DNA from: a virus
IMG/VR virus record: IMGVR_UViG_3300010391_000240
Coordinates: 1-21,110 of that record
DNA: 21,110 nucleotides
Direction: 5' to 3' (one strand)
Shown here piece by piece: positions 1 to 12,421 of the stretch (within the stretch, counting starts at the first letter, position 1; the number at the start of each line of letters is the position of its first letter). The notes beneath the pieces were generated by a model that saw only the letters and a program-made list of their open reading frames with translations, was not told where the DNA came from and searched no databases. Position numbers and translations under genes: made by a program.

Positions 1-735
1 CAGGCTGAGTATGCGCGTCGAGCTCGAGTGTCAAAGCCGATGGTTCATGCCCTGGTAAAAAAAGGGGTTGTGGTTTTATCGATCATCGAGCTCAATGGCA
101 AACAGGAGCGTAGAATCGATCTAGGTAAAACGACAAATTTAGAATATCTCGTGAACCGTGGGTATGTTCCGTCGCCATCTAAGGCCCCCTTAGAACCTAC
201 AGAGCCATCGGGGACAACGTCAATCGATTCTGAGGGCTGCGAGACCAATGCAGAAAAGGCCCCGACTATTTCTGTTCACGGGCCTACAGAGCCGCTTCAG
301 AGTGTTCCAGATGATAATCCTCAGTTGCCGTTGGACCTCAACACAGCCTCAAAACCCGCACTCGACCGCATTAAAACGCTCGAGCAAATCCGACAAATTC
401 AGGTGCAAACCAGCCGTGCCCGAGGAGATCTGATAGACCGCGATCTGGTTCGTCGGCTCCTCCTCCAGCTCCTCTCTATAGACAATAGCCAATTCATGCA
501 CATGTCGGATGATCTGACTGGCCGCATCATAGCCGAGATACAGATCGAGCGCATATTCGGGATGTTGCCCTCAGAGCAACGCGCCACGCTGGGCTTCGAT
601 ATGACGGCCATCAATGCACAGGTCAATGCTACCATCGATCTGGCAATCAATAATGTGCTCATCCAGAAGGAAAAAATGATTTCTGATTTTCTAAATTACG
701 TCGGCTCGGAGGCTGCTGTAGATGACGTCGCATAG
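1..735 (+). CDS. Phage terminase small subunit, Nu1-like (5' truncated by window edge)
   Basis: The small terminase subunit recognises the packaging site on phage DNA and recruits the large subunit. The frame is open from base 1. Before the GTG at 28 it reads QAEYARRARV, which continues into SKPMVHALVKKGVV. That is a Nu1-type winged helix-turn-helix start (AEYAR..GVS...V..AV..G), so the true start lies upstream of the window and the GTG at 28 is probably an internal codon. The N-terminal domain is followed by a Pro/Ser/Thr-rich, probably disordered linker (about residues 50-110 counted from position 28). A helical C-terminal part (ARGDLIDRDLVRRLL onward) fits the large-subunit-binding region. 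The stop overlaps the large-subunit start by 14 bp. Family assignment rests on the HTH pattern and the neighbour; the linker is not informative. Confidence 0.8.
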   Translation, partial: QAEYARRARVSKPMVHALVKKGVVVLSIIELNGKQERRIDLGKTTNLEYLVNRGYVPSPSKAPLEPTEPSGTTSIDSEGCETNAEKAPTISVHGPTEPLQSVPDDNPQLPLDLNTASKPALDRIKTLEQIRQIQVQTSRARGDLIDRDLVRRLLLQLLSIDNSQFMHMSDDLTGRIIAEIQIERIFGMLPSEQRATLGFDMTAINAQVNATIDLAINNVLIQKEKMISDFLNYVGSEAAVDDVA

Positions 736-2656
736 TGACGTTGAATACCTCCGAGGGATAGTCAACGAGCATCGCCTCCGGATGCCCAATCCATCCATTT
801 CTAATTTCATAGAGCAGCACCGTATTCTCCCCACTGACACCCCTTTCCCTGGCCCGTGGCGCAATGACAAGACCCCCTACCTCACAGAGATCATGGACAA
901 CATGGGGCCCTACAGTGGAGTAATTAAGACCTCTGTGATGAAGGGCGCGCAAATCGGCGTCACAGCCGCAGTTGAAAACGTCCTGGCCTACTGGATGAAA
1001 GAATATCCTGCCGCCTGCATGTTCGTTATAGCCAATGATGCGCTGTGCAAATCATGGGGCGCAAAACGCCTGGAGCCCCTGATAAATTCTATTGGTTTTA
1101 GAGATAAAATCATGACGCAATTGGACGAATATAAATCCCGACGCACTGGTGACACGATTTACGAGAAAAAATACCCAGGCGGATTTCTGAAAATCGCTTC
1201 AGCTCAGGCCGCTGGTTCGCTCCGTTCTGATTCCATCCGTATCCTCAGTATAGATGAGCTGGACGGTTGTCCCGCTGAGTTGCGTTCGGGTGAGGGTAAT
1301 TTCAATGACGTTGTGGAGGCCCGTACTAATGCCTATTCATATCGCGCTCGCATTATCCAGAGTTCTACCCCTACTACGTTCGAGGCATCGCTGATTAGCC
1401 GTGAGTATGAGATGGGAGACCAGCGTAAATACCACGTCCCATGTCCCTACTGTGGCTATGCGCAGGAGCTGGTGTTCGAGAACCTGAAACCGGATACTCA
1501 TGCTGGACGCCTGGTTAATGCCTATTACCTGTGCTCAAAATGTTCAGAGGCCATTTTTAATAACCAGAAATACGAGATGCTGCGCCTCGGCCAATGGATC
1601 CCGACTGCACAGTCCTCCGTGCTCAGCCATAGGTCGTATCATATCTCGGCCCTGTACTCTCCTCCGGGGCTGGAGTCCTGGACGTCCATCTACCAGAAAT
1701 ATCAGAAGGCCCAGCGTACCCCGGCTGGGATGCGGAGCTTTGTCAATCTCTGCCTCGGCCTCCCCTACAAGGAGAGCGGTTCGCGCCCCAAAATCGAAAA
1801 GGTTATCGAACTCCGAGGGGCCTACACCTCGCGCACCGTGCCTCATGGCGTGCTCTATCTGACGTTTGGCATAGACGTCCAGCGCGGCTCTGACACGGAC
1901 CCCGCCAACCCTCCGCGCCTGGAGATGGAGATCGTGGGTCATGGGGCTGGCTATCGCACCTGGGGCATCATGTATCAGACGTTTGAGGGCGCTCTGGATG
2001 ACCCCTATGCAGGAGCATGGGAGGTGCTGTACGAGTGGGCCGATGCTAAAAATTTCACCTTCAGGCGTGCCGATGGGCGCACGTTCCAGCCCGTGTTCGG
2101 TTTTGTGGATTCGGGCGATGGCCAGACGTATGACGTGGTTTATCGTTTCTGCAATAGGTGGGTAAACACATTCCCCTCCAAGGGCTATGCCCGGCTGACC
2201 TCCAAAAACGATGAGGGCTCGGACCCGTTCAGCCCGAGCCGTGAGAGAAGCTTCCGAAAAACCACCACCGGCAAAGCTGATGGAAAATTATTCTTAATCA
2301 ACACAAACCACTACAAACGTCTTCTCTACAACAATCTGAGAATCGAGCGCCAGCCCCTGGAGCCTCAGCGTCCTGGGTTTTGTGATTTCCCTATCGACTA
2401 TGACCAGCGATATTTTGAGATGTTGACTGCGGAGGAGTTGAGGGTGGACGGGTCGTTCACCTCAGCAGGGCGGCGCAATGAGGCGCTGGACTGTCGCGTT
2501 ATGGCGCTCTGTGCCGGGGATGTGTTTCTCGGGGCCAGCGTAACTGATATGCAGGCGTACATGAAATCCCAGGGCATGACAGCCGATCAGCTCATGGGTA
2601 TCAATTACAGGTACGTCCTGGACTATATGGCCAAACTCACAGAAGGGCCGATGTGA
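722..2656 (+). CDS. Phage terminase large subunit, GpA family
   Basis: ATP-driven DNA-packaging motor and nuclease that cuts concatemeric phage DNA and pumps it into the prohead. The 644-residue length is close to lambda gpA. Visible elements in order: a Walker-A-like loop KGAQIGVT (about 74-81), a Walker B strand ILSIDE with the acidic pair D178/E179, a four-cysteine zinc-ribbon-like insert (CPYC at 241-244, CSKC at 271-274), and a C-terminal nuclease domain with GIDVQ (D385) and FVDSGD (D463) as likely metal-binding acids. The ATG at 722 follows a CGGAGG Shine-Dalgarno at 707-712 and lies inside the end of the small-subunit gene, so the two are translationally coupled. No frameshift or missing key residue is visible. 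Confidence 0.95.
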   Translation: MTSHSDVEYLRGIVNEHRLRMPNPSISNFIEQHRILPTDTPFPGPWRNDKTPYLTEIMDNMGPYSGVIKTSVMKGAQIGVTAAVENVLAYWMKEYPAACMFVIANDALCKSWGAKRLEPLINSIGFRDKIMTQLDEYKSRRTGDTIYEKKYPGGFLKIASAQAAGSLRSDSIRILSIDELDGCPAELRSGEGNFNDVVEARTNAYSYRARIIQSSTPTTFEASLISREYEMGDQRKYHVPCPYCGYAQELVFENLKPDTHAGRLVNAYYLCSKCSEAIFNNQKYEMLRLGQWIPTAQSSVLSHRSYHISALYSPPGLESWTSIYQKYQKAQRTPAGMRSFVNLCLGLPYKESGSRPKIEKVIELRGAYTSRTVPHGVLYLTFGIDVQRGSDTDPANPPRLEMEIVGHGAGYRTWGIMYQTFEGALDDPYAGAWEVLYEWADAKNFTFRRADGRTFQPVFGFVDSGDGQTYDVVYRFCNRWVNTFPSKGYARLTSKNDEGSDPFSPSRERSFRKTTTGKADGKLFLINTNHYKRLLYNNLRIERQPLEPQRPGFCDFPIDYDQRYFEMLTAEELRVDGSFTSAGRRNEALDCRVMALCAGDVFLGASVTDMQAYMKSQGMTADQLMGINYRYVLDYMAKLTEGPM

Positions 2657-2662
2657 TATAAT
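2654..2662 (+). promoter_or_regulatory. Extended -10 promoter directly upstream of the gene at 2668
   Basis: TGATATAAT matches the extended -10 consensus TGnTATAAT perfectly. The TATAAT (2657-2662) ends 5 nt before the ATG at 2668, so transcription should start at or within a base of the start codon. No good -35 hexamer is seen 16-18 bp upstream (as usual for extended -10 promoters), and no Shine-Dalgarno lies within range of the ATG. This would give a leaderless mRNA for the 2668 gene, in addition to read-through from the terminase genes. One matching site could be chance. Confidence 0.45.
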
Positions 2663-2667
2663 CATCC

Positions 2668-3396
2668 ATGTCCAACGAGTTTTCAGTCAAAAGCGATATT
2701 CGCAGGCTCACCCTCTGGACCCTAAAGGCCCCGATGCAGTTCCGGCGCGCCATGGCCGGATACCTCAATACCTCTGCGTTTGGCTCGCGTAAAAAATCAC
2801 AAATCATCATCCAGCGGTCTATGGTGGTCCGGGCTCCGGGGTTTATTTTGGGCTCTATCCGAGTTGAGCGGGCTTCTCCGGCCCCATATCCCGTCCACAT
2901 GACCTCTATGATGGGTTCCGTTAAGCGAGAGCGCTACAGCGGCCTTGCGGAGCAGGAGACGGGCCAGGCGTGGGCCACGAAACGGACCAACACCGTGGCC
3001 GCGCGCGAGGGCAGTCCGAGGCGCATCATTCCCAAAAAATATCGCATGGGTCGGAAACACAGGCTCCTAACCGACGTGGTGGATTTATTTGTTGCCCGCC
3101 GGGCCGGACGGGCAGCATCAAACCAATCACATTCCAGTCGCGTGGCCGCTGCATTGGCCATACTGACGCGCAAAAACGATACGCGGCCCTTTATCATAGG
3201 CGGCACGCCCGGACGCAAATCCGGGCTCTACAGGCTCGATGGGGGCAAACTGGTGATGCTCCAGCGCATCAAACGCAGGAGCATCAGGCCCAAGCGCGTG
3301 GAATGGATGTCCGGGGGCGTGAAAAAATTCTACCAGTTCAATCGCCCCAATACCGTCTGGAGGTTGGAGCTGGCCCGTCAGGGCCTGAAGCTCTAA
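2668..3396 (+). CDS. Basic phage protein, possible neck/minor tail (GPZ- or gp10-like) component
   Basis: A 242-residue protein rich in Arg and Lys throughout. It contains an ERYSGLAEQETGQAWATKR segment and a C-terminal beta-rich part. The pattern (N-terminal helix with RAMAGYLNTSAFGSRKKS, a strand with SIRVERA, then W..QE.G and a basic tail) recalls small phage connector or tail-completion proteins found near terminase genes, but I cannot assign a family firmly. No signal peptide or membrane segment is seen. It starts 11 bp after the large terminase. Its ATG lacks a Shine-Dalgarno but sits 5 nt behind a TATAAT box, so a leaderless transcript is possible. Its stop lies 3 bp from the stop of the convergent reverse-strand operon. 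A DNA-binding role inside the head is an alternative. Confidence 0.6.
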   Translation: MSNEFSVKSDIRRLTLWTLKAPMQFRRAMAGYLNTSAFGSRKKSQIIIQRSMVVRAPGFILGSIRVERASPAPYPVHMTSMMGSVKRERYSGLAEQETGQAWATKRTNTVAAREGSPRRIIPKKYRMGRKHRLLTDVVDLFVARRAGRAASNQSHSSRVAAALAILTRKNDTRPFIIGGTPGRKSGLYRLDGGKLVMLQRIKRRSIRPKRVEWMSGGVKKFYQFNRPNTVWRLELARQGLKL

Positions 3397-3399
3397 TTT

Positions 3400-3618
3400 C
3401 TACCTGATGGGTTTGCCGCACTTATGCAGGCGCACCAGCGCGGGATTATCCTCTCTGGCCAGACTCCGCATGTACTCGGAGAGCGATATATCCAGTGCAG
3501 TAGCCCGTGCCGATATGGCGCGCTTTTCCAGTCCAGTGACCCTGACTCTGATGATATCGGTTTTACCTCTCAGCCCCAGTTGCGAGCCCTTGATGATCGT
3601 AGTCTTATGTCCCTGCAT
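3400..3618 (-). CDS. Ribbon-helix-helix DNA-binding protein, probable regulator of the reverse operon
   Basis: A 72-residue protein. Residues about 19-55 fit a ribbon-helix-helix (Arc/CopG/MobC-like) fold: a basic strand DIIRVRVTG, a first helix EKRAISARATAL, then SLSEYMRSLARE, which matches the conserved (S)-x-SEY-[IM]R ending of the family. RHH proteins dimerise and bind short inverted or direct repeats through the beta strand. This is the last gene of a four-gene reverse-strand operon. Its ATG overlaps the previous gene by 14 bp and has GAGG six bases upstream. The position fits an autorepressor, and an ATTAATG repeat flanks the operon promoter at 4544-4607. The fold is well supported; the target is inferred. 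Confidence 0.75.
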   Translation of the reverse strand: MQGHKTTIIKGSQLGLRGKTDIIRVRVTGLEKRAISARATALDISLSEYMRSLAREDNPALVRLHKCGKPIR

Positions 3619-3835
3619 TCATCACCTCGATGTAAGATTTTATGTATCTCAGTGCGTCTCTATGGGCCTGATGTATCAGCCGGTTAAAGCCGCGCTTCAG
3701 CTCGCTCGAACCGTCCAGCCAATACCAGCGTATCCCCTCGTCCTGGACCCTGTACATTTCCACCCGAGTCCCTCTGGTCTCATCGTGGTTATTCAAATAT
3801 TCGTTTAGGTCTCTGACAGCGGTTTCCATGGTCAT
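3605..3835 (-). CDS. Hypothetical protein of the reverse-strand accessory operon
   Basis: A 76-residue protein I do not recognise. It is helical in character, with an N-terminal METAVRDLNEYLNN segment, a central strand-like RVEMYRVQDEGIRWYWLDG, and a C-terminal amphipathic helix (LIHQAHRDALRYIKSYIEVM). No signal peptide, membrane span or metal motif is seen. The ATG has a GGGGGAG Shine-Dalgarno seven to twelve bases upstream, inside the end of the preceding gene, so translation is coupled. Third gene of the operon running from 4488 to 3400. Small, soluble, unrecognised proteins placed next to an RHH regulator in late phage regions are often accessory or anti-defence proteins, but nothing in the sequence proves that here. 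Confidence 0.7.
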   Translation of the reverse strand: MTMETAVRDLNEYLNNHDETRGTRVEMYRVQDEGIRWYWLDGSSELKRGFNRLIHQAHRDALRYIKSYIEVMNAGT

Positions 3836-3838
3836 GGG

Positions 3839-4096
3839 CTACTCCCCCATGCTCAGGGCTGCGCGGCGCAGGACATCCCCTACAAACACGTTGCCGCAGA
3901 GGAATATTTTCCGGCCCTCATGCCGCCCTATGCGCTCTGAGTGCATGTTACCACGGTGCGCGCGCCAGGCCCTGTAGATGCGCGCCAACTCCATACTGTA
4001 TTTGCGCTGGCCTATCATGTCGCGGGCCTCCTGGCCTCCAAGCAGGGCCGTATAGGCCCTCTTGAGATATTGTTTTTCAGCATGCCTGAGTTTCAT
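3839..4096 (-). CDS. Hypothetical basic protein of the reverse-strand accessory operon
   Basis: An 85-residue, strongly basic protein with many Arg and His residues. The N-terminal part (KLRHAEKQYLKRAYTALLGGQ) and the middle (YSMELARIYRAWRAHRG) look like amphipathic helices, followed by a short hydrophobic stretch KIFLCGNVFVGDVL. It has one Cys, no zinc motif and no clear signal peptide. A GGGGGA Shine-Dalgarno lies seven bases before the ATG. The gene starts 2 bp after the stop of the upstream gene and ends 3 bp before the next start, so it is part of one transcript. Nucleic-acid binding is suggested by charge only. I do not recognise the family. Confidence 0.7.
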   Translation of the reverse strand: MKLRHAEKQYLKRAYTALLGGQEARDMIGQRKYSMELARIYRAWRAHRGNMHSERIGRHEGRKIFLCGNVFVGDVLRRAALSMGE

Positions 4097-4098
4097 GG

Positions 4099-4488
4099 TT
4101 ATATCCCCCTTAACTGTGACTCGTAGCGCCGGGTGCGGGTTGCACGAGCTTGGTTGCCGCGCTCGTGCTTCTCGTCCCTTGCTGCCACGCGCTTAGACTC
4201 GTTTATCCAAGGCTTGCGATAGGTGCCATTGGCATAAAGGTTGCGCCCCTTAATACGGGTGGTGTTCCCGTCTGAGAGCTGGAGCGTGAAGGTGTGTTGT
4301 TGTTTGGCCGCGCCATAGCTGTCTTTGGTTATGGTGCCGGTGATGAGTTCGAAGTGCGAGAACTTGGCGGCACGGAAGGAGCCAGTGAAGACGGCTCGCT
4401 CGAACCTCACTTCGTCCCCACATACCGCGTCGCCTGTGCATCTGATGCTGTACTCTGCGTCGCCCTTATATTGACTCTCCTGATACAT
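4099..4488 (-). CDS. Hypothetical phage protein, first gene of the reverse-strand operon
   Basis: A 129-residue protein. The N-terminal two thirds look like a small beta fold (GDEVRFERAVFTG, HFELITGTITKDSYG, HTFTLQLSDGNTTRIKGRNL). The C-terminal third is a charged, Arg-rich helix (KRVAARDEKHERGNQARATRTRR). The block from TKDSYGAAKQQHTFTL through RIKGRNLY looks like a conserved functional core, but I cannot name the family. An excellent GGAGG Shine-Dalgarno is four bases from the ATG. It is the promoter-proximal gene of the operon, about 54 nt downstream of the predicted start site of a TTGACA promoter. OB- or SH3-like nucleic-acid binding would fit the strand pattern and basic tail. This is inference. 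Confidence 0.7.
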   Translation of the reverse strand: MYQESQYKGDAEYSIRCTGDAVCGDEVRFERAVFTGSFRAAKFSHFELITGTITKDSYGAAKQQHTFTLQLSDGNTTRIKGRNLYANGTYRKPWINESKRVAARDEKHERGNQARATRTRRYESQLRGI

Positions 4489-4543: not shown

Positions 4544-4607
4544 AATTAATGTTACCACGTTTGTAGCTATAATGTCAAGACTTTTATCGCCCACCCTCAC
4601 ATTAATT
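4544..4607. repeat. 9-bp inverted repeat flanking the reverse promoter (candidate operator)
   Basis: AATTAATGT at 4544-4552 and its exact reverse complement ACATTAATT at 4599-4607 lie on either side of the reverse-strand -35, with the first overlapping the -10. A third copy of the core ATTAATG is at 4632-4638, next to the palindrome TAATATTA (4628-4635). Short repeated half-sites around a promoter are what ribbon-helix-helix repressors bind, and such a protein is encoded at the end of the operon. In a locally AT-rich stretch a 9-bp repeat could be chance. Confidence 0.4.
4549..4578 (-). promoter_or_regulatory. Sigma70-type promoter for the reverse-strand operon
   Basis: On the reverse strand a perfect TTGACA (4578-4573) is followed after 18 bp by TAACAT (4554-4549), a good -35/-10 pair. 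Predicted transcription start is about 4542, giving a leader of roughly 54 nt with a strong Shine-Dalgarno. It is the best consensus promoter in the window and needs no phage activator by its sequence. That suggests these four genes are expressed early, or in the lysogen, unlike the surrounding late genes. Confidence 0.65.
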
Positions 4608-4645: not shown

Positions 4646-4682
4646 TTTGGCTTGATTAAGCCCCGGCTATCCCAAATAATAT
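4646..4682 (+). promoter_or_regulatory. Palindromic late-type promoter, leaderless start for the gpW-portal operon (copy 1)
   Basis: A 21-bp sequence (4646-4666) containing the interrupted palindrome GGCTTGATTAAGCC (4649-4662) recurs exactly at 11199-11219. TTGATT inside the palindrome (4652-4657) is a plausible -35. After 17 bp comes AATAAT (4675-4680), within the shared ATAATAT. The ATG at 4687 is 7 nt past the hexamer, so the predicted transcript starts at the A of the start codon. No Shine-Dalgarno precedes this ATG. The palindrome over the -35 is a likely site for an activator or repressor. Identical spacing in both copies, with unrelated spacer bases, argues for a real promoter. Confidence 0.65.
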
Positions 4683-4686
4683 ACGC

Positions 4687-4977
4687 ATGACACCCACGGA
4701 GCGTGCTGAGCTACAGGCCAGACTCGTCACTCTACAGGCGCGCCTCGCGGCTCTGGAGTTGGCCTACACCGCCTCGCTGGCCGGGGGTAATAAATCCTAC
4801 CAGTTCAACTCCGGTGTGGGCTCACAGTCCGTAGAGCGGCACAATCCCAAAGACCTCCAACTGAGCATCGAGTCCACACAGGCCGAGATCGATAAAACGA
4901 AACGCCTCCTGGCCGGGACTCAGGGCTACACCATGAGCCTCCGGCGCACGTGTGGTTATGGGGGGCTCGCCATATGA
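4687..4977 (+). CDS. gpW-like head-tail joining protein
   Basis: A 96-residue protein placed directly before the portal, the position of lambda gpW, which joins the filled head to the tail connector. An N-terminal helical hairpin (TERAELQARLVTLQARLAAL) is followed by a short strand SYQFNSGVGSQSVERHN and a second helix (PKDLQLSIESTQAEIDKTKRLL). This matches the helix-beta hairpin-helix plan of gpW and the related small proteins seen before portals. The start codon coincides with the predicted transcription start and has no Shine-Dalgarno, suggesting leaderless translation. The stop overlaps the portal ATG (ATGA at 4974-4977). Family assignment comes from fold pattern and position, not from strong sequence identity. 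Confidence 0.65.
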   Translation: MTPTERAELQARLVTLQARLAALELAYTASLAGGNKSYQFNSGVGSQSVERHNPKDLQLSIESTQAEIDKTKRLLAGTQGYTMSLRRTCGYGGLAI

Positions 4978-6638
4978 ATATAATAGAGCGCGCCCTCACG
5001 GGCCTGGGCCTCATCCGCAACGTAGACCACGCCGTGCAGAGCGTGGAGAGCCAGGCGCGTTCGGAGTTCGCACGCTATCATGCCCATGTCGTCGCGCAAA
5101 TGGGCTATGGTTCCACCGTGTCAGACCACCGCTCGTATGGCGGCAAATATCCCATGGGCATCCCCGGCACAGGCTCGGGCCGGACGCTCTCTCACTATGA
5201 CCTCCGCATAAATGCCCGCGAGCGCTACCATGACACTACGCAGGCCAAGGCCCTGGTAGACAGGTTTGTGGACGTCGTGGTGGGCACAGGGCTACAGATA
5301 GAGCCTACCCCGCAGGCTGACCTGCTCGGCATCACCAGCGAGGAGGCAGAGGCGTGGGCGCGCAACGTGGCCACCCGGTTCCGGCTCTGGAGCGAATCCA
5401 AAAACCAGCATCGCTCATGCAATATGACGTTCACTCAGTACCAGAAAGTCTACGCGCGTGGGATGCAGCTCGACGGGGAAAATTTCACGCGCTTGTTTTA
5501 CTCCAAAGACCATGGCCTCCTCAATCCGCTACAGTTCGAGGGGCTGGACCCTAACCAGATATGCGGCAATGCCTACACGTCTACAGACGGCCTATCCACG
5601 TCGGCACAGTTCAATGACGGCATCCGGCGTGATGCTCAGGGCCGCGAGTTCGAGTATACGATCTGGGTACCACGCACGGGGGTCGGCTACGAGCGTGTGA
5701 CCATTCCCGCCCGAGGCGAGAAATCCGGGCGCACGTTTATGCTGCATGGGTTCGTGCCGGACTATAACGGGCAACAGCGCGGCTATAGCCGCATCGGCCA
5801 TGCTATACAGGATTTTCTAAATATCGCGGATTTCGAGCAGGCGCAGGTGCGCAAGGCCATTAACCAGAGCAACCTCGCGTTCGTCTCGGAAAATACCCAG
5901 ATGTCTCCCGGAGATCCTCTGGCCGGGATGTCCAAAAACGTGGCAGGCCGTCCCGTCTCGGCCACCTCTCCAGCCACCAGCAGCACTGATGCCATGACGT
6001 GCAATCTGTTGCCAGAGGCGAGTTTCAGGATACCGGGCTCCACCATGGTCATTGCGGCTCAGCGTGGAGATACGCTAAAACCGGTTCCCAACACCGCGCC
6101 TGCGGACTCGTATGATAAATTTCTGGACGCGTTGATGTCCTACCTCAGTGCCTCCATGAGCATGCCGCTGGAGATGTTGAAACTCCAGTTCAACTCCAAC
6201 TATAGCGCATCACGTGCAGCAATATTGCTGTTCTGGCGCGTGGCAGAGCAGTGGCGGGGCGAGCTGTCTACAGACTGTCTGGACCCCGTGTACGAGGCGT
6301 GGCTGACCGAGGAGATCGCCATGGGCACTATACAGGCTCCGGGCTGGTTCAACCCTCTGATGCGTGCTGCGTGGCTGTCGTGCCTATGGATCGGGCAGGG
6401 CGCGCCGGACATAGACCCCACCAAGACCGCTAAGGCCGTCCGCGAGCGCATAGAGATGGGGCATACCACGATGGAGCGCGAGGCTCGGAACTATAACGGT
6501 TCGGATGCCACCGCCAACCGGATGAAGCTCCGTAAGGAGTTCGAGGATTATCCCCACGCGCCCTGGGAGCTGTTGAAGGCGGGCCTGACAGAGGATGTCG
6601 AGGCTGATGATAAAAACGAGATCGAGGAGGAAAAATAA
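4974..6638 (+). CDS. Phage portal protein, lambda gpB family
   Basis: Dodecameric portal that forms the DNA entry and exit channel at one head vertex and docks the terminase. The length, 555 residues, is close to lambda gpB (533). The family hallmark is seen at about residues 76-97, where LRINARERYHDTTQAKAL runs into a hydrophobic helix ending VVGTGLQIEP. It is followed by conserved GLDPNQI and by SYLSASMSMPLEMLKL in the C-terminal half. The acidic C-terminus (EDVEADDKNEIEEEK) is typical. I chose ATG 4974, in ATGA overlap with gpW and with a GGGGGG tract 9 bases upstream, over the in-frame ATG at 4950, which adds only MWLWGARH and has no ribosome site. Confidence 0.93.
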   Translation: MNIIERALTGLGLIRNVDHAVQSVESQARSEFARYHAHVVAQMGYGSTVSDHRSYGGKYPMGIPGTGSGRTLSHYDLRINARERYHDTTQAKALVDRFVDVVVGTGLQIEPTPQADLLGITSEEAEAWARNVATRFRLWSESKNQHRSCNMTFTQYQKVYARGMQLDGENFTRLFYSKDHGLLNPLQFEGLDPNQICGNAYTSTDGLSTSAQFNDGIRRDAQGREFEYTIWVPRTGVGYERVTIPARGEKSGRTFMLHGFVPDYNGQQRGYSRIGHAIQDFLNIADFEQAQVRKAINQSNLAFVSENTQMSPGDPLAGMSKNVAGRPVSATSPATSSTDAMTCNLLPEASFRIPGSTMVIAAQRGDTLKPVPNTAPADSYDKFLDALMSYLSASMSMPLEMLKLQFNSNYSASRAAILLFWRVAEQWRGELSTDCLDPVYEAWLTEEIAMGTIQAPGWFNPLMRAAWLSCLWIGQGAPDIDPTKTAKAVRERIEMGHTTMEREARNYNGSDATANRMKLRKEFEDYPHAPWELLKAGLTEDVEADDKNEIEEEK

Positions 6639-6640
6639 TA

Positions 6641-6904
6641 ATGGCAGACCCCGTGCTCGTACCGCTCGTGGCTAATGCCTGGACTCTGGTGGCTGCAAAC
6701 GTCACCGTGGGCCAGATACATAAATCCGGCAATATCGGAACGCCACTGTATCAGACGTTCGTCTCGACCGGCAATCCGGCTCCGGTGGATTTGACGCTGG
6801 CTGTGCCCATGGTGGGCGACAGTGAGAGCATCAGCTCGCCCGTCGGCATAGATGTATATCTGTGGGCCTCTGGCGCTGCGGCTGTCGTCAGGGTGGATAT
6901 ATGA
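6641..6904 (+). CDS. Small beta-rich phage protein of unknown function
   Basis: An 87-residue protein with alternating hydrophobic residues (LVANAWTLVAANVTVGQI, GIDVYLWASGAAAVVRVDI), predicted to be almost all beta strand. No signal peptide and no Cys. Similar short beta proteins beside fibre or decoration genes often form virion surface or fibre-attachment parts. It begins 2 bp after the portal stop with an upstream GAGGA, and its stop overlaps the next gene's start (ATGA at 6901-6904), so it is made in step with the fibre-like protein that follows. Its function is not recognisable from the sequence. Confidence 0.65.
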   Translation: MADPVLVPLVANAWTLVAANVTVGQIHKSGNIGTPLYQTFVSTGNPAPVDLTLAVPMVGDSESISSPVGIDVYLWASGAAAVVRVDI

Positions 6905-8448
6905 TAGGGAGCGGTGTCGAGCCCGGACAGGTCCCTCAGCCTCTGTCAGAGGTAGATAGCCCGTTGTTTGCGGGCCTTGTGCTGTCTGACGACTGGGGAA
7001 AAGCCTGGTGGGAGTCCCTGGGTCAATTCGACGCGCTTTACATCGGCAGTCCGTTTGACGGTATAACCAAAACTATCCGGATGTCTGTCTCGGACGACGA
7101 GGTTGTCGTCGACTCATCCAGGTCCTATAGCGAGCTACGCGTGTTTGGAGATCCCATGGGGAACTCCAACACACAGTTGACGTTGTGGAGTATAAGTCCG
7201 CTCGCGTTGGCCACCGCCCACATAGATTTATCAGCCACGCAATCAGCATATGGAGCCCCAACGTGTCGAATGGAAATGAGCAATTCTCTTTGGGAGGTAG
7301 TTATCTCCGATCTGGGGATGGTGCTCAATACCATAGGCATCGATGTCTACAATGCATATATAGCTGTCTGGTCCCCTGGTGGGATGCAGGGAATAATCAT
7401 TGACGATTTTGACACCGGGGGCGCTGCGCTGGATACTGTAGCCATGTTCCCCTACGACCTGACGCCGGGTAATATGGTCCCCGGCTTCAGGACGGAGGAT
7501 GGCACCCTGATCCTGCTGGACCAGAGTATGCTAACTACGGACGATGTGGAGTTCGCTCTGGTGGCCCATGAGGCTGTCAGCGGGGATATGTACATCGACG
7601 TGGCAACGCTGGCTACGGCTGCCAGCGTTGCCACGCCCACGGGCACGGTCATCAGCGGGACCGTGGTAGACACGCGCACCATTAACGCCACGTACTATCA
7701 GGTCCAGGAGGTGGCAGCTACTCCGGGGTTCCTGGTGGAGTTCACGTTCGAGGGCATCACACAGACCCCGCAGGTCCTGCATTTCAAGGGCCGCTACCAG
7801 GGGAACGCTGCCCATGACGTGATACTACAGGTCTGGAACTACAATACCGTTGCCTGGGAGGCCCTCACTGGCCTCGCCGATGACATACCAAACACTGCCG
7901 CTGATGTCCATTATACGTTCACGATGCCGGGCGTCCTCGCGGGCACCTGGCCCACGCACTATGTGAGCGCTGGACAGATGAGGGTGCGGTTTAACCACAC
8001 CACTGCGGGGATTGCAACACATAACCTCTATGTGGACTACATCGCCATACAGCAGCGTTCGATCACCCTCACGGTGAAGGGCACACAGTACACGCTGATA
8101 GACGGCATGGCTGCAGGGACGCAGGACAACGTGACTATCACAGCGGCCTCCGGAATGGCCACGATACTCATCAGCGGGAAATACCGCATCGATGGATACC
8201 TGTGCATGGCTGGTCTGCCGACGCTGACTGTCGAGGGCCACATAGCCATAAACGATGTCATACAGGGGCGCGGTGGATTTAAACACACCCTCCATGATAA
8301 TAGTGCGGAGTTCACAAACGAAACCTACAGCGGGTTTTTCGACCTGGTTGCCGGGGATGAAATCAAATTCAAACTCAAGGGCGATCTGCCCGGTGGCTGG
8401 CTCTCGATAAACGATTTCGCAATGCTCATCCAATACATCGGCAAATAG
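6901..8448 (+). CDS. Fibre-like virion protein with C1q/TNF-like C-terminal domain
   Basis: A 515-residue protein, Gly-, Thr- and Val-rich, with no signal peptide. The N-terminal 240 residues are beta-rich and unrecognised. The middle (about 265-395: TPGFLVEFTFEGITQTPQVL, then TFTMPGVLAGTW and MRVRFNHTTAGIATHNLYVDYI) looks like a carbohydrate-binding-type jelly roll. The last about 115 residues (ISGKYRIDGYLCMAG, then INDVIQGRGGF, YSGFFDLVAGDEIKFKLKG and a final MLIQYIGK) match the strand pattern of trimeric C1q/TNF-like caps. Such proteins are usually host-binding fibres. Its place next to the portal, far from the tail genes, raises a head-attached fibre. I chose ATG 6901 (ATGA overlap); an in-frame ATG at 6862 lies deep inside the previous gene. 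Confidence 0.65.
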   Translation: MIGSGVEPGQVPQPLSEVDSPLFAGLVLSDDWGKAWWESLGQFDALYIGSPFDGITKTIRMSVSDDEVVVDSSRSYSELRVFGDPMGNSNTQLTLWSISPLALATAHIDLSATQSAYGAPTCRMEMSNSLWEVVISDLGMVLNTIGIDVYNAYIAVWSPGGMQGIIIDDFDTGGAALDTVAMFPYDLTPGNMVPGFRTEDGTLILLDQSMLTTDDVEFALVAHEAVSGDMYIDVATLATAASVATPTGTVISGTVVDTRTINATYYQVQEVAATPGFLVEFTFEGITQTPQVLHFKGRYQGNAAHDVILQVWNYNTVAWEALTGLADDIPNTAADVHYTFTMPGVLAGTWPTHYVSAGQMRVRFNHTTAGIATHNLYVDYIAIQQRSITLTVKGTQYTLIDGMAAGTQDNVTITAASGMATILISGKYRIDGYLCMAGLPTLTVEGHIAINDVIQGRGGFKHTLHDNSAEFTNETYSGFFDLVAGDEIKFKLKGDLPGGWLSINDFAMLIQYIGK

Positions 8449-8461
8449 AGGAGGTAGTACA

Positions 8462-8797
8462 ATGTTTTCACTGACGGGCGCAAAACGGTTTGAGGCGGAG
8501 CCCTGGTTTATCGAGGCTCCCACGGAGTGGCAGGGCAAGGTCACAAAAATAGTGGTTGAGCCGGAAAAGTCTTTTTTCAACCGCGCTACCAGCCAGGATG
8601 AGGAACGGCCCAACGCTGCAATCGAGTTTGCGGTGGGCAAGCTCCGCGAAGGGATTTTCGTGGAGCACCTGCGCGTCCGGCCCGTGGTCACGCTGGAGGG
8701 TGCTGATTACGATGCGTTTCTGGCAGCGCTCCCCGTCATGGCCTCGCTGGAGGCCCTGGTGGTGGACGTGCTCCAGAACCCCAGGCCGAGGGTATAG
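8462..8797 (+). CDS. Hypothetical phage protein
   Basis: A 111-residue soluble protein, not recognised. The N-terminal half is strand-like (FEAEPWFIEAPTEWQGKVTKIVVEPE). The C-terminal half has an acidic alpha/beta run (DYDAFLAALPVMASLEALVVDVLQNPRPRV). There is no Cys, membrane span or signal peptide. A strong GGAGG Shine-Dalgarno lies in the 13-bp gap after the fibre gene. The next gene starts 2 bp after its stop. It could be a fibre chaperone or accessory by position only. Confidence 0.65.
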   Translation: MFSLTGAKRFEAEPWFIEAPTEWQGKVTKIVVEPEKSFFNRATSQDEERPNAAIEFAVGKLREGIFVEHLRVRPVVTLEGADYDAFLAALPVMASLEALVVDVLQNPRPRV

Positions 8798-8799
8798 CC

Positions 8800-9375
8800 A
8801 TGACAATAAAACTCACTCGCTCGGACGTTGTCAGGCTGTACGAGGTCATCAGGCTGGTGCTCAGGGCCCCTGCGTTCTCGTTTTCGCTGATGAACCAGCT
8901 CCATCTCCTGTCTGCCTGTCTGAAGGCCCTCATTGGGGCCATGGAGGCCACTGCGCGGCCTATAGGAGCGCTGGAGCAGTACGTGGCAGAGCATACCAAG
9001 CTCCAGTTAGCGCATGCCCAGCGGGACAGGTCTGGCCGCGCCATGAAGCGGCCTGACGGTCACTACATAATCCGCGAGGGCGAGATGCCCAAACTGACCG
9101 AGGCCATAGCCAGCCTCATAGCTAAATACGCAGACCAGGGCCATGATATCAATGACCTCTATACCTCACACCTGAGCATGTGCAACGAGTTCATGGCAGA
9201 GATGATCGACGTGGAGGTCGCCCCTATGACCCCGGAGCAGATGGCTGCTATCGAGGGACTCTGCCAGTCCGGCAGGCTGAGCCTGACCGGGGAGGACGTG
9301 GTGCTGTTACAGGCTATGGTGCCTCAGCATGAGCCCGCCCCTGCCGCCAAATGGGATAACTGTGACGGGCATTAG
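8800..9375 (+). CDS. Hypothetical helical phage protein
   Basis: A 191-residue protein, largely alpha-helical, not recognised. The first 55 residues contain a helical run with moderately hydrophobic stretches (DVVRLYEVIRLVLRAPAFSF, LMNQLHLLSACLKALIGAM). The middle has a short polar segment with DGHYIIREGEMPKLTEAI. The C-terminal third has a PMTPEQMAAIEGL motif followed by LTGEDVVLLQAMV. No signal peptide. Its start follows the previous stop by 2 bp with only a weak GAGGG upstream. The next small gene begins within its last codons. The function is unknown; its place just before the lysis block is the only clue. Confidence 0.65.
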   Translation: MTIKLTRSDVVRLYEVIRLVLRAPAFSFSLMNQLHLLSACLKALIGAMEATARPIGALEQYVAEHTKLQLAHAQRDRSGRAMKRPDGHYIIREGEMPKLTEAIASLIAKYADQGHDINDLYTSHLSMCNEFMAEMIDVEVAPMTPEQMAAIEGLCQSGRLSLTGEDVVLLQAMVPQHEPAPAAKWDNCDGH

Positions 9376-9562
9376 CGTAGAGGCGTTCGAGACTTGGAGC
9401 GAGGAGCGCATACGCGCAAAAAACAAATGCGCCGGGAGGGCCTGTACGCCCTCCTATGGCGATGAGATGTGCCGGGCCTGCTATGTGGCACAGTGCCAGG
9501 GCAGGCAGCATATAGCAGGAGTCCGGGACAACAGAGAGGCCCATGAGGATGACGTTGTCTGA
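9362..9562 (+). CDS. Small cysteine-rich protein, candidate zinc finger (A)
   Basis: A 66-residue protein from GTG 9362; a longer in-frame ATG at 9329 would overlap the previous gene more. It has five cysteines in the order C-x4-C-x8-C-x2-C-x4-C (KCAGRACTPSYGDEMCRACY), so a zinc-binding knuckle is likely. The C-terminus is acidic. It overlaps the gene before (14 bp) and the gene after (20 bp). The next gene shares the C-x-P-x6-C-x2-C-[YW] core, so the two are probably an old tandem duplication. The start choice is uncertain because the Shine-Dalgarno (TGGGA) is weak. Role unknown; small zinc proteins of phages often bind nucleic acid or host enzymes. Confidence 0.55.
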   Translation: MTGISVEAFETWSEERIRAKNKCAGRACTPSYGDEMCRACYVAQCQGRQHIAGVRDNREAHEDDVV

Positions 9563-9734
9563 GGCCCTGAGATATACCGAGTGGGCGCAGCAATGCCTAC
9601 AGGATAATTCCATATGCCGCCATGCCAACCAGGCAAACATGCCCTCGCGGTGCATCCCGCTGAGGGCCGAGAGGCGGTGTCAGGAATGCTGGCAGGCGGC
9701 ACAGGAGGCGCACGATGAGCAGAGACATAAATAA
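9543..9734 (+). CDS. Small cysteine-rich protein, candidate zinc finger (B)
   Basis: A 63-residue protein with five cysteines (C-x6-C-x11-C-x8-C-x2-C). The last three form SRCIPLRAERRCQECW, matching the preceding gene's core C-x-P-x6-C-x2-C-[YW]. Arg- and Gln-rich, no membrane span. ATG 9543 and ATG 9549 are both possible; AGAGG at 9535-9539 is better spaced for 9549. It overlaps the previous gene by 20 bp and the endolysin gene by 20 bp, so it sits in the translation-coupled chain leading into the lysis cassette. Function unknown. Confidence 0.55.
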   Translation: MRMTLSEALRYTEWAQQCLQDNSICRHANQANMPSRCIPLRAERRCQECWQAAQEAHDEQRHK

Positions 9735-10143
9735 ACTCGCCCCGGACGTCCGGGCGCTGTGCGTGTTGCTGATCGATCAGGCCCGAATAGCAGGCATCAA
9801 AATAGGCATCACGTCCACCCTCAGGACTCCGCAGGAGCAGGAGGCCCTATATGCCCTGGGCCGCATGCCTGTCGAGGCGGTCAATGCCCTGCGAGGTGCG
9901 GCTGGCATGCCCTCCATCACGGAGGAGGAAAATAACAGGCGCGTGACGTGGACCCGGCAGAGCCGCCACCTGACGGGCCGGGCTTTTGATTTTGTGGTTA
10001 TCCATCCCAGGGGATATGCCGACTGGCATAACATAGAGGCGTTCACGCGCGTTGGCGAGATCGGGGAAGCCCTCGGGCTTTATTGGGGTGGCCGGTTCGA
10101 GAAAAGAGACCTCGCGCATTTTCAGGCGGAGCCGCCCGAATGA
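9715..10143 (+). CDS. M15-family peptidoglycan endopeptidase (endolysin)
   Basis: A lytic enzyme that cuts the peptide part of the cell wall (L-alanyl-D-glutamate or D-Ala-type peptidase, M15/VanY fold). The 142-residue length fits single-domain phage M15 endolysins. The zinc ligands are visible as H85 and D92 in SRHLTGRAFDF and H135 in DLAHFQ, with D132 as the likely catalytic acid just before. The GLYWGGRF block ahead of it is typical. No signal peptide is seen, so it needs a holin for release. ATG 9715 has a GGAGG six bases upstream. Its stop overlaps the next start (ATGA at 10140-10143). It heads a four-gene lysis cassette. Confidence 0.9.
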   Translation: MSRDINKLAPDVRALCVLLIDQARIAGIKIGITSTLRTPQEQEALYALGRMPVEAVNALRGAAGMPSITEEENNRRVTWTRQSRHLTGRAFDFVVIHPRGYADWHNIEAFTRVGEIGEALGLYWGGRFEKRDLAHFQAEPPE

Positions 10144-10427
10144 CGCCGCCCCCTGCCAAGGGATTTATCCGCGCTATGCTCTCCTCGGATAGTGCGGTCT
10201 CGTTTGGCCGCGTGGCCGCGTTTACGCTCCTGATTGCGTACATCCCCGGCTATGTCTATACCGTGTTCACGTGGCGTTGGGATGCCATGACGCTGGTCTA
10301 CTATAACTGCGTGCAGGTTTTGTTTTTTCTGGCCGCGCTGATGCCCTCCAAGATCACGGACGCCATGAGGGCGATATTCTCACGCGGGGCAGAGACCGCC
10401 AAGCCCACCACAGAGGAGAGGCCATGA
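10140..10427 (+). CDS. Two-segment membrane protein, probable holin
   Basis: A 95-residue protein with two hydrophobic segments: about 22-44 (GRVAAFTLLIAYIPGYVYTV) and about 50-68 (LVYYNCVQVLFFLAALM). It has a charged C-terminal tail (SRGAETAKPTTEERP). Size, topology and position directly after the endolysin fit a class II-type holin that makes membrane lesions to release the enzyme. ATG 10140 overlaps the endolysin stop, and its own stop overlaps the next ATG (10424-10427). Holins are too diverse to assign by sequence; an anti-holin or other inner-membrane protein remains possible. Confidence 0.65.
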   Translation: MTPPPAKGFIRAMLSSDSAVSFGRVAAFTLLIAYIPGYVYTVFTWRWDAMTLVYYNCVQVLFFLAALMPSKITDAMRAIFSRGAETAKPTTEERP

Positions 10428-10822
10428 CAATATCAGACGCGCTTGTCAAGATCAAGGACGTGCTCAAAAGGATCTTCGCAAATAAATATCTGAGGTATGT
10501 TTTCCTCGGATTAGTAGCCCTGTGCGGCCTGTATTTTCTGTTCACCGGCTCTGGCCGCGATATCACGTACCGGATTTTCAGAGACCAGATCAATGCGCAC
10601 TCCGCCACCATACAGGCCACATACGAGGCGCAGATCAAGGCCCTCGGGCTGGAGCTACAGGCCCGTAATAAGGAGCTTGCAGCCTCACACAAGCGCGTGG
10701 AGATGCTGAACGAGAAGCTCTCCGGCCTCATGGAGAGGCGTAGGAATATCAAGCCCCCGGCCACGGGCCAGGAGCTTGTAAAACGCTTTAGGGAGATCGG
10801 CTATGATGTCACAGTGCGTTAG
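10424..10822 (+). CDS. Rz-like inner-membrane spanin candidate
   Basis: A 132-residue protein with one transmembrane segment near the N-terminus (about 23-41, LRYVFLGLVALCGLYFLF), followed by a long periplasmic coiled coil (about 55-105, TYEAQIKALGLELQARNKEL onward). This is the plan of phage i-spanins such as lambda Rz, which join an outer-membrane partner to fuse the two membranes at lysis. The gene overlaps the holin-like gene by 4 bp, and its last 20 bp overlap the next gene, as Rz and Rz1 often do. The short cytoplasmic N-terminus is basic. Assignment rests on topology and position. Confidence 0.65.
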   Translation: MTISDALVKIKDVLKRIFANKYLRYVFLGLVALCGLYFLFTGSGRDITYRIFRDQINAHSATIQATYEAQIKALGLELQARNKELAASHKRVEMLNEKLSGLMERRRNIKPPATGQELVKRFREIGYDVTVR

Positions 10823-11198
10823 TGTCGTCCTGTTGCTGTTGGCCTTGGCGCTGCCCTGCGGGGCGGCTGAGGTCTGTATGGGAGAGGCCCCGGCGCGAGC
10901 CGTGCTGATAGAGCTGGAGGCGTGCAGGGTAGACCGTGATATCATCTCGTCCCAGGCCAGCATCGTACAGGAGCAGAGGCAACAGATAGATATACTCAAT
11001 GGCGTGGCCGTGACGCTCTCTGCGCAGGTGCAGGCGGACGCCGTGACTATCGAGGAGCGCGGTAAACAGGTGGAGTTGGTGCAGAGCCAGTGCGAGGCAC
11101 AGATAGAGGCCGCGCGGCCCAGCCTGATGGATCGCCTCGGATGGGGTGGCGGTGGTGCGCTCCTGGGCCTCCTGTTTGGTGTGATGTTGGTTTTGTAA
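10803..11198 (+). CDS. Exported coiled-coil protein with C-terminal membrane anchor, possible spanin partner
   Basis: A 131-residue protein. The N-terminal signal segment (about 6-22, VSVVLLLLALALPCGAA) has likely signal peptidase I cleavage after GAA. A periplasmic coiled coil follows (about 35-100, rich in Gln and Glu), then a C-terminal hydrophobic segment (about 113-131, GGGGALLGLLFGVMLVL) ending at the stop. Lambda Rz1 is a short lipoprotein without a C-terminal anchor, and this protein has no good lipobox (the Cys near the signal end is preceded by Pro). The two-ended topology is closer to unimolecular spanins. The gene starts in the last 20 bp of the Rz-like gene. ATG 10803 or 10806 are both possible. 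It is the last gene before the second palindromic promoter. Confidence 0.6.
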   Translation: MMSQCVSVVLLLLALALPCGAAEVCMGEAPARAVLIELEACRVDRDIISSQASIVQEQRQQIDILNGVAVTLSAQVQADAVTIEERGKQVELVQSQCEAQIEAARPSLMDRLGWGGGGALLGLLFGVMLVL

Positions 11199-11235
11199 TT
11201 TGGCTTGATTAAGCCCCGGAGGTAGGTGATAATAT
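11199..11235 (+). promoter_or_regulatory. Palindromic late-type promoter, leaderless start for the protease-capsid operon (copy 2)
   Basis: Exact second copy (11199-11219) of the 21-bp sequence at 4646-4666, with the palindrome GGCTTGATTAAGCC at 11202-11215. TTGATT (11205-11210) and GATAAT (11228-11233) are separated by 17 bp. The ATG at 11240 is 7 nt beyond the -10, the same geometry as copy 1. GGAGGT at 11218-11223 is 16 bases from the ATG, too far to act as a normal ribosome site, and it would lie upstream of the predicted transcript. The copy begins right after the stop of the spanin-like gene. It splits the late region into two transcription units. Confidence 0.65.
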
Positions 11236-11239
11236 TTCC

Positions 11240-12421
11240 ATGCGGAAAATAATAATTAGCGGTATCATCGGGTGGGACGCCAATGCCAAAGACCTCCGCA
11301 AGGCCCTGACCGAGGCCAACGGCCAGCCTGTCCAGATAGAGATCAACTCCCCCGGTGGTCTCGTCTATGAGGGCATCGAGATGTACAACCTAATCAGACG
11401 CTACAAGGGCCGCACTGAGTGCGTCATCATGGGCATGGCTGCGTCCATGGCGTCGTACATCGCGCTGGCCTGTGACAAAGCCAAGGCCATGTCCAACGCC
11501 ACGTACATGATCCACAACGCCCTCACCGTGGCCATGGGCAACCATAACCAGCTCCGCAAAACCGCAACGCAGCTCGAAAACATATCCCAGCTCCTGGCCA
11601 ACGCCTATCAGGCCAAAACCAAACTCCCTATGAAAAACATCCGCCGCATGATGGATGAGGAAACGTTCCTGTACGGCTCCGAGATTGGCGAGGCCGGGTT
11701 TGTGGACGAGGTCATACAGGCAGAGCCGAGGGAAACGCCCGACAAGGCCAGTGCGGTCGCGCAGGCACAGGCCACGCTCGGGGCTATGTGGACTGCCATG
11801 AGGGACAGCGTGGAGGCTCAGGGTGACCTACAGAGAGCCGCGGCTATCCTGGACCCTGCCGCGATGCAGGCCGCACTACCCGGCATCGATGAGGGCGAGG
11901 TGGCATCCTCTGACGACAAAACGTTCGAGCCCGCCGGGACGCTCTCCGGCTTTAGCGGAATAACCGAGCCCGGAGTTCCGGGCGCAAAAAACACGGAGGT
12001 AAGACAAAAAATGACACTCGCAGAACTGCTCGCAGCCAACCCGGCTGCCAGCGCAGAGCACCTCGCAATGCTCTCGACGGCCCGTATTGAGGCCGAGACC
12101 GCAGTCAGGACGCAGCTCAAGGCGACGGCCCTGAAGGCCGTCAAATACATGGAGGGCTACCCCAGGGCTATACAGGCCCTCGCCATCAGCGTGCTGTCCG
12201 GCGAGAGGGGCCTCGATGTGCTCGAGGGCGCAGCCGTGGCCTACGAGGCCATGACCGAGGCTGGCAAGTCCACCGCCGCACAGACCGAGGGTGGCACGCT
12301 GCCCGAGACCCCGCCGTCTGACGGGGCTGGCGCAGCCGCACAGAAGATTTCCAAATACGAGGAGACCGGGGTCGTGGACTCCGTGGAGGCATACAAAGCC
12401 ATGGTCAAGGAGGGCAAATAA
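11240..12421 (+). CDS. Prohead maturation protease (ClpP/S14-like) with C-terminal scaffold domain
   Basis: A 393-residue protease of the lambda gpC functional type but with a ClpP-like fold. The catalytic triad is visible as S69 in GMAASMAS, H92 in YMIHNA, and D139 in MMDEETF. The oxyanion-loop NSPGG is at 36-40 and the ending GEAGFVDEV at about 150-158. Residues after about 258 form a separate Ala-rich helical domain (TLAELLAANPAASAEHLAML onward), also made alone from an internal start, as with lambda C and Nu3. It cleaves scaffold and itself during head assembly. The ATG is at the predicted transcript start and lacks a well-placed Shine-Dalgarno, implying leaderless translation. Decoration and capsid genes follow directly. 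Confidence 0.9.
   Translation: MRKIIISGIIGWDANAKDLRKALTEANGQPVQIEINSPGGLVYEGIEMYNLIRRYKGRTECVIMGMAASMASYIALACDKAKAMSNATYMIHNALTVAMGNHNQLRKTATQLENISQLLANAYQAKTKLPMKNIRRMMDEETFLYGSEIGEAGFVDEVIQAEPRETPDKASAVAQAQATLGAMWTAMRDSVEAQGDLQRAAAILDPAAMQAALPGIDEGEVASSDDKTFEPAGTLSGFSGITEPGVPGAKNTEVRQKMTLAELLAANPAASAEHLAMLSTARIEAETAVRTQLKATALKAVKYMEGYPRAIQALAISVLSGERGLDVLEGAAVAYEAMTEAGKSTAAQTEGGTLPETPPSDGAGAAAQKISKYEETGVVDSVEAYKAMVKEGK
12011..12421 (+). CDS. Internal in-frame start: capsid scaffold protein nested in the protease gene (Nu3-like)
   Basis: Inside the protease gene, GGAGGT at 11995-12000 precedes an in-frame ATG at 12011. This would give a 136-residue protein starting MTLAELLAANP, equal to residues 258-393 of the full-length product. 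It is Ala-, Glu- and Gln-rich and helical, with no protease residues, as expected for a scaffold. The same arrangement, Nu3 within C, is established in lambda and in many phages with fused protease-scaffold genes. The stretch before the ATG (about residues 215-257) looks like a flexible linker. The spacing of 11 bases from GGAGG is a little long but workable. Confidence 0.65.
   Translation: MTLAELLAANPAASAEHLAMLSTARIEAETAVRTQLKATALKAVKYMEGYPRAIQALAISVLSGERGLDVLEGAAVAYEAMTEAGKSTAAQTEGGTLPETPPSDGAGAAAQKISKYEETGVVDSVEAYKAMVKEGK

Follow-up and report, generated by a model that had tools for sequence, protein, structure and literature searches.

We consider it highly probable that two sigma70-type promoters in the window, a viral fragment of 21,110 bp with lambda-type head genes and contractile-tail genes, open two separate head operons, each initiating transcription at the A of its leading gene's ATG, with the head-tail adaptor gpW and the head protease translated from leaderless mRNAs, and that this is a trait of the whole phage group to which the window belongs. 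One promoter would open the operon beginning with gpW and portal and the other the operon beginning with protease, D and capsid. Promoter and start codon would form one composite element of fixed length, the distance between the initial T of the -35 and the ATG being 35 nt, and the messages would presumably be translated through recognition of the 5'-AUG by 70S ribosomes. Most members of the group show the trait at gpW, many show it at the terminase small subunit and some at the protease. As judged from the sequence comparisons presented below, the assignment of putative leaderless promoters to the heads of morphogenesis operons is well supported.

Gene content and the two putative promoters of the window

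The genes of the window are arranged in the order terminase small subunit, terminase large subunit, a minor tail-like gene, four minus-strand genes, gpW, portal, further genes, a lysis cassette (our own reading of the ORFs), protease, D, capsid and sheath. Apart from the inserted lysis cassette and minus-strand genes, this is the order of the lambda-type head module, namely small and large terminase, W, portal, protease, D and capsid. The two promoters head rightward operons, one located after the minus-strand genes and the other after the lysis cassette. Details of the features are presented in Table 1.

Table 1. Coordinates of genes and promoter elements in the window
Feature	Position	Strand	Basis
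Terminase small subunit-like gene, truncated at its 5' end by the record boundary, start outside the window	1..735	+	phrog_57, E 2.6e-4
Terminase large subunit gene (GpA), SD-led; query for relatives	722..2656	+	sequence search
TATAAT with TGA before it (an extended -10), separated by 5 nt from the ATG that starts the gene at 2668 and touching the terminase stop	2657..2662	+	lacks a good -35; one case only
Minor tail/neck-like gene without an SD	2668..3396	+	phrog_4688, E 6e-10
Divergent promoter-like TTGACA-18-TAACAT, for the minus-strand genes	4549..4578	-	sequence match
Repeat block, copy 1, containing the -35 (~-41 to -21)	4646..4666	+	exact 21-mer
-35 element TTGATT, putative gpW promoter	4652..4657	+	sequence match
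-10 element AATAAT, 17-bp spacer	4675..4680	+	sequence match
gpW-like head-tail adaptor gene, no SD; predicted transcription start on the A of the ATG (4687)	4687..4977	+	phrog_118, E 1.7e-8; HMM relatives
Repeat block, copy 2	11199..11219	+	exact 21-mer
-35 element TTGATT, putative protease promoter	11205..11210	+	sequence match
-10 element GATAAT, 17-bp spacer	11228..11233	+	sequence match
ClpP-like head protease gene; predicted transcription start on the A of the ATG (11240)	11240..12421	+	PF00574, E 3e-29

No exact direct repeat in the window is longer than the block TTTGGCTTGATTAAGCCCCGG, a 21-mer present in two exact copies. The longest repeat in 200 dinucleotide shuffles of the window ranged from 12 to 18 bases (18 only once) and never exceeded 18, and the expected number of 21-mer pairs is ~7e-5. 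No third copy could be identified in the window with up to 3 mismatches allowed. Copy 1 is followed by CTATCCCA, AATAATAT, ACGC and the ATG of gpW, and copy 2 by AGGTAGGT, GATAATAT, TTCC and the ATG of the protease. Both have the layout TTGATT-17-[AG]ATAAT-6-ATG, which puts the A of the ATG at the usual +1 position. The -10 and the offset of the ATG are kept in the two copies while the spacers between repeat and -10 diverge. Both hexamers deviate from the sigma70-type consensus, each promoter matching it at 9 of 12 positions. An in-frame stop falls inside the repeat in both copies (the frames open at 4660 and 11213) and therefore no start codon is possible upstream of the assigned ATGs.

Direct reading of the window thus confirms the two copies, their coordinates and the distances given in the original prediction. 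The accompanying claim that neither gene has a usable Shine-Dalgarno (SD) sequence holds fully for gpW. It needs qualification for the protease, where AGGTGA ends 10 nt and GGAGG 17 nt before the ATG, both badly spaced; under the promoter model these two motifs sit upstream of the predicted +1.

The four small genes of the minus strand (3400-4488), of which one is NikA-like (ribbon-helix-helix) and one DUF7699, separate the terminase and tail-like genes from gpW. The promoter-like sequence assigned to them shares its intergenic region with the gpW promoter and is followed by an ordinary leader of ~55 nt and an SD, in contrast to the predicted leaderless starts of the window.

Relatives of the window

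No close relative of the window was found in the annotated phage collection. Capsid and protease as single-sequence queries gave few or no relatives. Alignment searches were successful with D and sheath, which gave a handful, and with the terminase, which led to 62 viral contigs and 17 genome contigs. The closest genome contigs belong to Desulfobacteraceae (55% terminase identity) and Desulfuromonadales MAGs, and the hosts of the group are probably Desulfobacterota and others. The gpW gene was found by HMM in 46 sequences including the window. After removal of near-duplicates and outliers 42 were used, comprising the window and relatives that were mostly reached via the terminase.

Promoter geometry before gpW is conserved

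Alignment of the 42 gpW upstream regions on the start codon, with positions counted from the A of the ATG, brings TTGACA into columns -35 to -30 and TATAAT into columns -12 to -7. In 31 of the 42 genes the best match to a sigma70-type matrix, made of approximate E. coli frequencies that may not be those of the host, stops 4-9 nt short of the start, and in 17 of these it stops exactly 6 nt short. The chance level for an end at 4-9 nt, obtained from shuffled upstream regions, is 13.8% (p ~2e-18 for 31/42); without the manual correction of two starts (L039 and L059) the count is 29/42 (p ~5e-16). No control gene family (terminase large subunit, portal, D, capsid, sheath and others) yielded more than one such case above the score cut. 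The spacing of the hexamers conserved in the relatives is 17-18 bp, and TTGAC is present upstream of 22 of 28 gpW genes as compared to 1 of 64 terminase large subunits.

The leaderless-type gpW genes, defined by a distance d of 4-9 nt between promoter match and start and by a score of at least 6, number 30. The base at -1 is C or T in 29 of them as compared to 59 of 181 control genes. A pyrimidine followed by a purine is the initiator of bacterial start sites, and the pyrimidine at -1 agrees with a transcript that begins at the A of the ATG. The start codon is ATG in 29/30, and in 23/30 no upstream in-frame start is present. SD-like matches are present in 3/30, as compared to 6/12 of the other gpW genes. 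About a quarter of all gpW genes are not leaderless by the matrix test. Terminator-like sequences were seen by eye directly before the promoter in L022, L027 and L029. In more distant isolated phages with a related terminase or portal, gpW lies close behind the terminase where it could be identified, and no such promoter precedes it.

The original prediction, which read both elements as promoters whose geometry places the start on the ATG, gains support from the recurrence of this geometry before gpW in many relatives and from one relative with the same two-gene design (L055, discussed below). It had also stated that a lack of further copies of the motif in related phages would count against it. 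On this point the outcome is divided: the geometry recurs, but the 21-mer itself, searched alone or together with the -10 in the viral contig collection, is absent from every other contig.

The same geometry at other operon heads

A scan blind to gene family, covering 1377 ORFs, identified 33 strong promoters with the -10 ending 5-8 nt before the ATG as compared to ~0.8 per position further upstream, where all distances of at least 10 nt combined account for 29. The hits include 17 gpW genes, the proteases of L003, L035 and L060 (the last being doubtful, with a AAAGGAGG-like sequence also upstream) and other genes, eight of which are terminase small subunits by the phrog_57 test. In a dedicated check of terminase small subunits, distant relatives included, the geometry was present in 13/39. 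The proteases show it in a minority only, most of those in relatives being SD-led. With its hits at gpW, the terminase small subunit and the protease, the geometry thus marks the places where operons of packaging and head genes begin. Members with the leaderless label are scattered across the entire deep terminase tree, with ten state changes (in a quick tree with several open forks) and across long branches; therefore the conserved spacing is unlikely to reflect mere common descent of the DNA.

On a wider reading, a large uncultivated phage group would have fused promoter and start codon wherever a morphogenesis operon begins (terminase small subunit, gpW and protease), and the entire machinery of packaging and head assembly would have been moved to leaderless, 70S-type translation. 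We put this forward tentatively and lean somewhat against it. The switch would perhaps serve to sustain synthesis of these proteins in late infection or stress, at times of limited initiation factors or limited SD-led translation.

The TATAAT that touches the terminase stop is a possible third leaderless start in the window. Homologues of the minor tail-like gene behind it have a weak promoter-like site in L025 and L026 (TTGAC and a -10-like hexamer ending 7 nt before the ATG) and no SD.

A probable shared factor and the palindrome

Relative L055 has a repeated block of its own before gpW and protease, a 20-mer (CTTGACTATAGCAAACGGGG) that differs in sequence from the block of the window. At both genes, as in the window, 35 nt separate the -35's first T from the ATG; the -10s of L055 are weak. 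The design is common to both genomes, the -35 and the upstream spacer being shared by the two copies and the rest being free. A search for repeated -35 blocks in the other relatives gave no clear one. The L055 block speaks for joint regulation of gpW and protease by something that recognises the -35 and the upstream spacer, and against an essential part for the palindrome; no significant dyad is present in the block.

The original prediction had a late regulator binding to the palindrome over the -35. The dyad of the window, with 5-bp arms and a 4-nt centre, is not beyond chance when the flanks are shuffled (p ~0.06-0.19). A dyad over the -35, as would mark an operator, is also lacking in the promoters of the relatives as a group, which stay near the shuffled level with a few strong cases such as L047 and L048. 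Given the weak dyad, the absence of the 21-mer from other viral contigs and these relatives, the late-regulator reading of the palindrome is weak and unsupported. The exact duplication of the block stays suggestive of an operator-controlled late promoter, and the identical 21 bp most likely make both promoters of the window respond to the same factor. If the dyad is an operator, its centre at ~-31.5 would be more in keeping with a repressor than with a classical activator. Within the 21-kb fragment no gene for a regulator was recognised. The strong palindromes of L047 (~110-160, TGTCAACTGGTTGACA) and L048 (~40-90, TTTGTCAACCGGTTGACAAA) lie over the -35 of terminase small subunit promoters and are candidate repressor operators.

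Alternative explanations

The elements could be ordinary gene-proximal promoters with leaders of a few nucleotides, the tight spacing being a result of compact genomes. Values of d of 7-10 in L015, L017 and L038 would allow leaders of 1-4 nt, and the gpW genes of L015, L022, L037 and L058 have a good promoter further upstream with a longer leader and an SD. However, the sharp mode at exactly 6 nt, the scarcity of SDs in that class and the fixed pyrimidine at -1 speak against such leaders, and leaders of 4-14 nt are absent in mapped Lactococcus transcripts (PMC10986495), which makes this explanation improbable. We give even less credence to the idea that the 21-mer and the AT-rich stretch form a 5'-UTR element, in which a hairpin (GGCUU-GAUU-AAGCC) and an A/U-rich site for ribosomal protein S1 would aid SD-less translation of a message started further upstream. 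It is the sigma70 hexamers at their 17-18 bp spacing that are conserved in the relatives and not the hairpin, the block of L055 has no significant dyad, the -1 pyrimidine (29/30) is a signature of start sites, and a search of the window against Rfam gave no match; these points outweigh the ability of GGCTT and AAGCC to pair, the A/U-rich sequence 5-12 nt before both ATGs and the lack of a good SD.

The least credible explanation, in our estimate a very remote one, is that the repeat is a recombination boundary or a recent duplication whose position before two ATGs is incidental. Such an origin would agree with an exact repeat that is not found elsewhere and with the insertion of lysis and moron genes before both operons. 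It does not account for the same ATG offset in both copies, for a -10 that is conserved next to a divergent spacer, or for the unrelated block of L055, which stands before the same pair of genes at an identical offset.

Relation to known systems

Leaderless phage messages as such are known, usually quoted as single cases or from hosts rich in leaderless genes; the variant proposed here appears to be novel and conserved to an unusual degree. The classical leaderless phage mRNA is that of lambda cI from PRM (review PMC9031893). As predicted for the genes of the window, it has a promoter starting on the AUG and no SD, but it concerns a repressor gene in one phage, in contrast to morphogenesis operon heads across a group. 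Predicted leaderless SigA promoters have been described in Cluster O mycobacteriophages (Corndog PL1, PR2 and PL2; PMC4351075). These are unrelated phages whose hosts are rich in leaderless genes, the genomes compared were closely related, and their dyad repeats are mostly not at promoters (PMC4351075). Corndog aside, nothing close was found in the literature on leaderless late or structural phage genes, and a search covering few subscription journals turned up no description of a leaderless layout conserved at gpW, the terminase small subunit and the protease. Among bacteria, minus-10-adjacent ORFs are known from Deinococcus-Thermus (PMC12340547), and 8 of 33 delta-proteobacterial genomes surveyed have leaderless genes (PMC3160421). 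These share with the present case a composite signal with the -10 a few nucleotides before the start codon; however, they are cellular genes, whereas full -35/-10 promoters at specific phage operon heads are seen here.

The head module Nu1-A-W-B-C-D-E of lambda has the same gene order as the window (small and large terminase, W, portal, protease, D and capsid). Lambda reads this module from one late promoter and its genes are SD-led, in contrast to the promoters found here before W and the protease. The late promoters of Mu, for example PI before the protease gene, have no good -35 and need the activator C. A putative late promoter directly before the head protease and a dyad near the -35 are points of likeness to Mu PI; the recognisable -35, the dyad centre at ~-31.5 and the lack of a visible regulator gene in the 21-kb fragment are points of difference.

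The recurrence of the leaderless layout at the same structural genes in phages whose terminases are only ~35-55% identical implies selection. The proposed layout predicts exact 5' ends for dozens of phages, would correct gene-start calls that rely on the SD and would offer a natural system for asking why a virus makes key head proteins by leaderless translation.

Further features of the relatives

The small gene after the portal (homologue of window 6641-6904) is present twice in L015, at 5005-5262 and 6997-7254. The tblastn matches to the decoration protein D in L047 and L053 are split in two, 0.7-1.1 kb apart, and the gene looks as if it were interrupted by an insertion. L019 contains a cluster of direct repeats of the AACGGCTTATGAGTTGTCACA family, ~72 bp apart (2404-2692), which is possibly a phage replication or regulatory site, and a weaker copy of the same family overlaps the start of its gpW gene (6622-6660).
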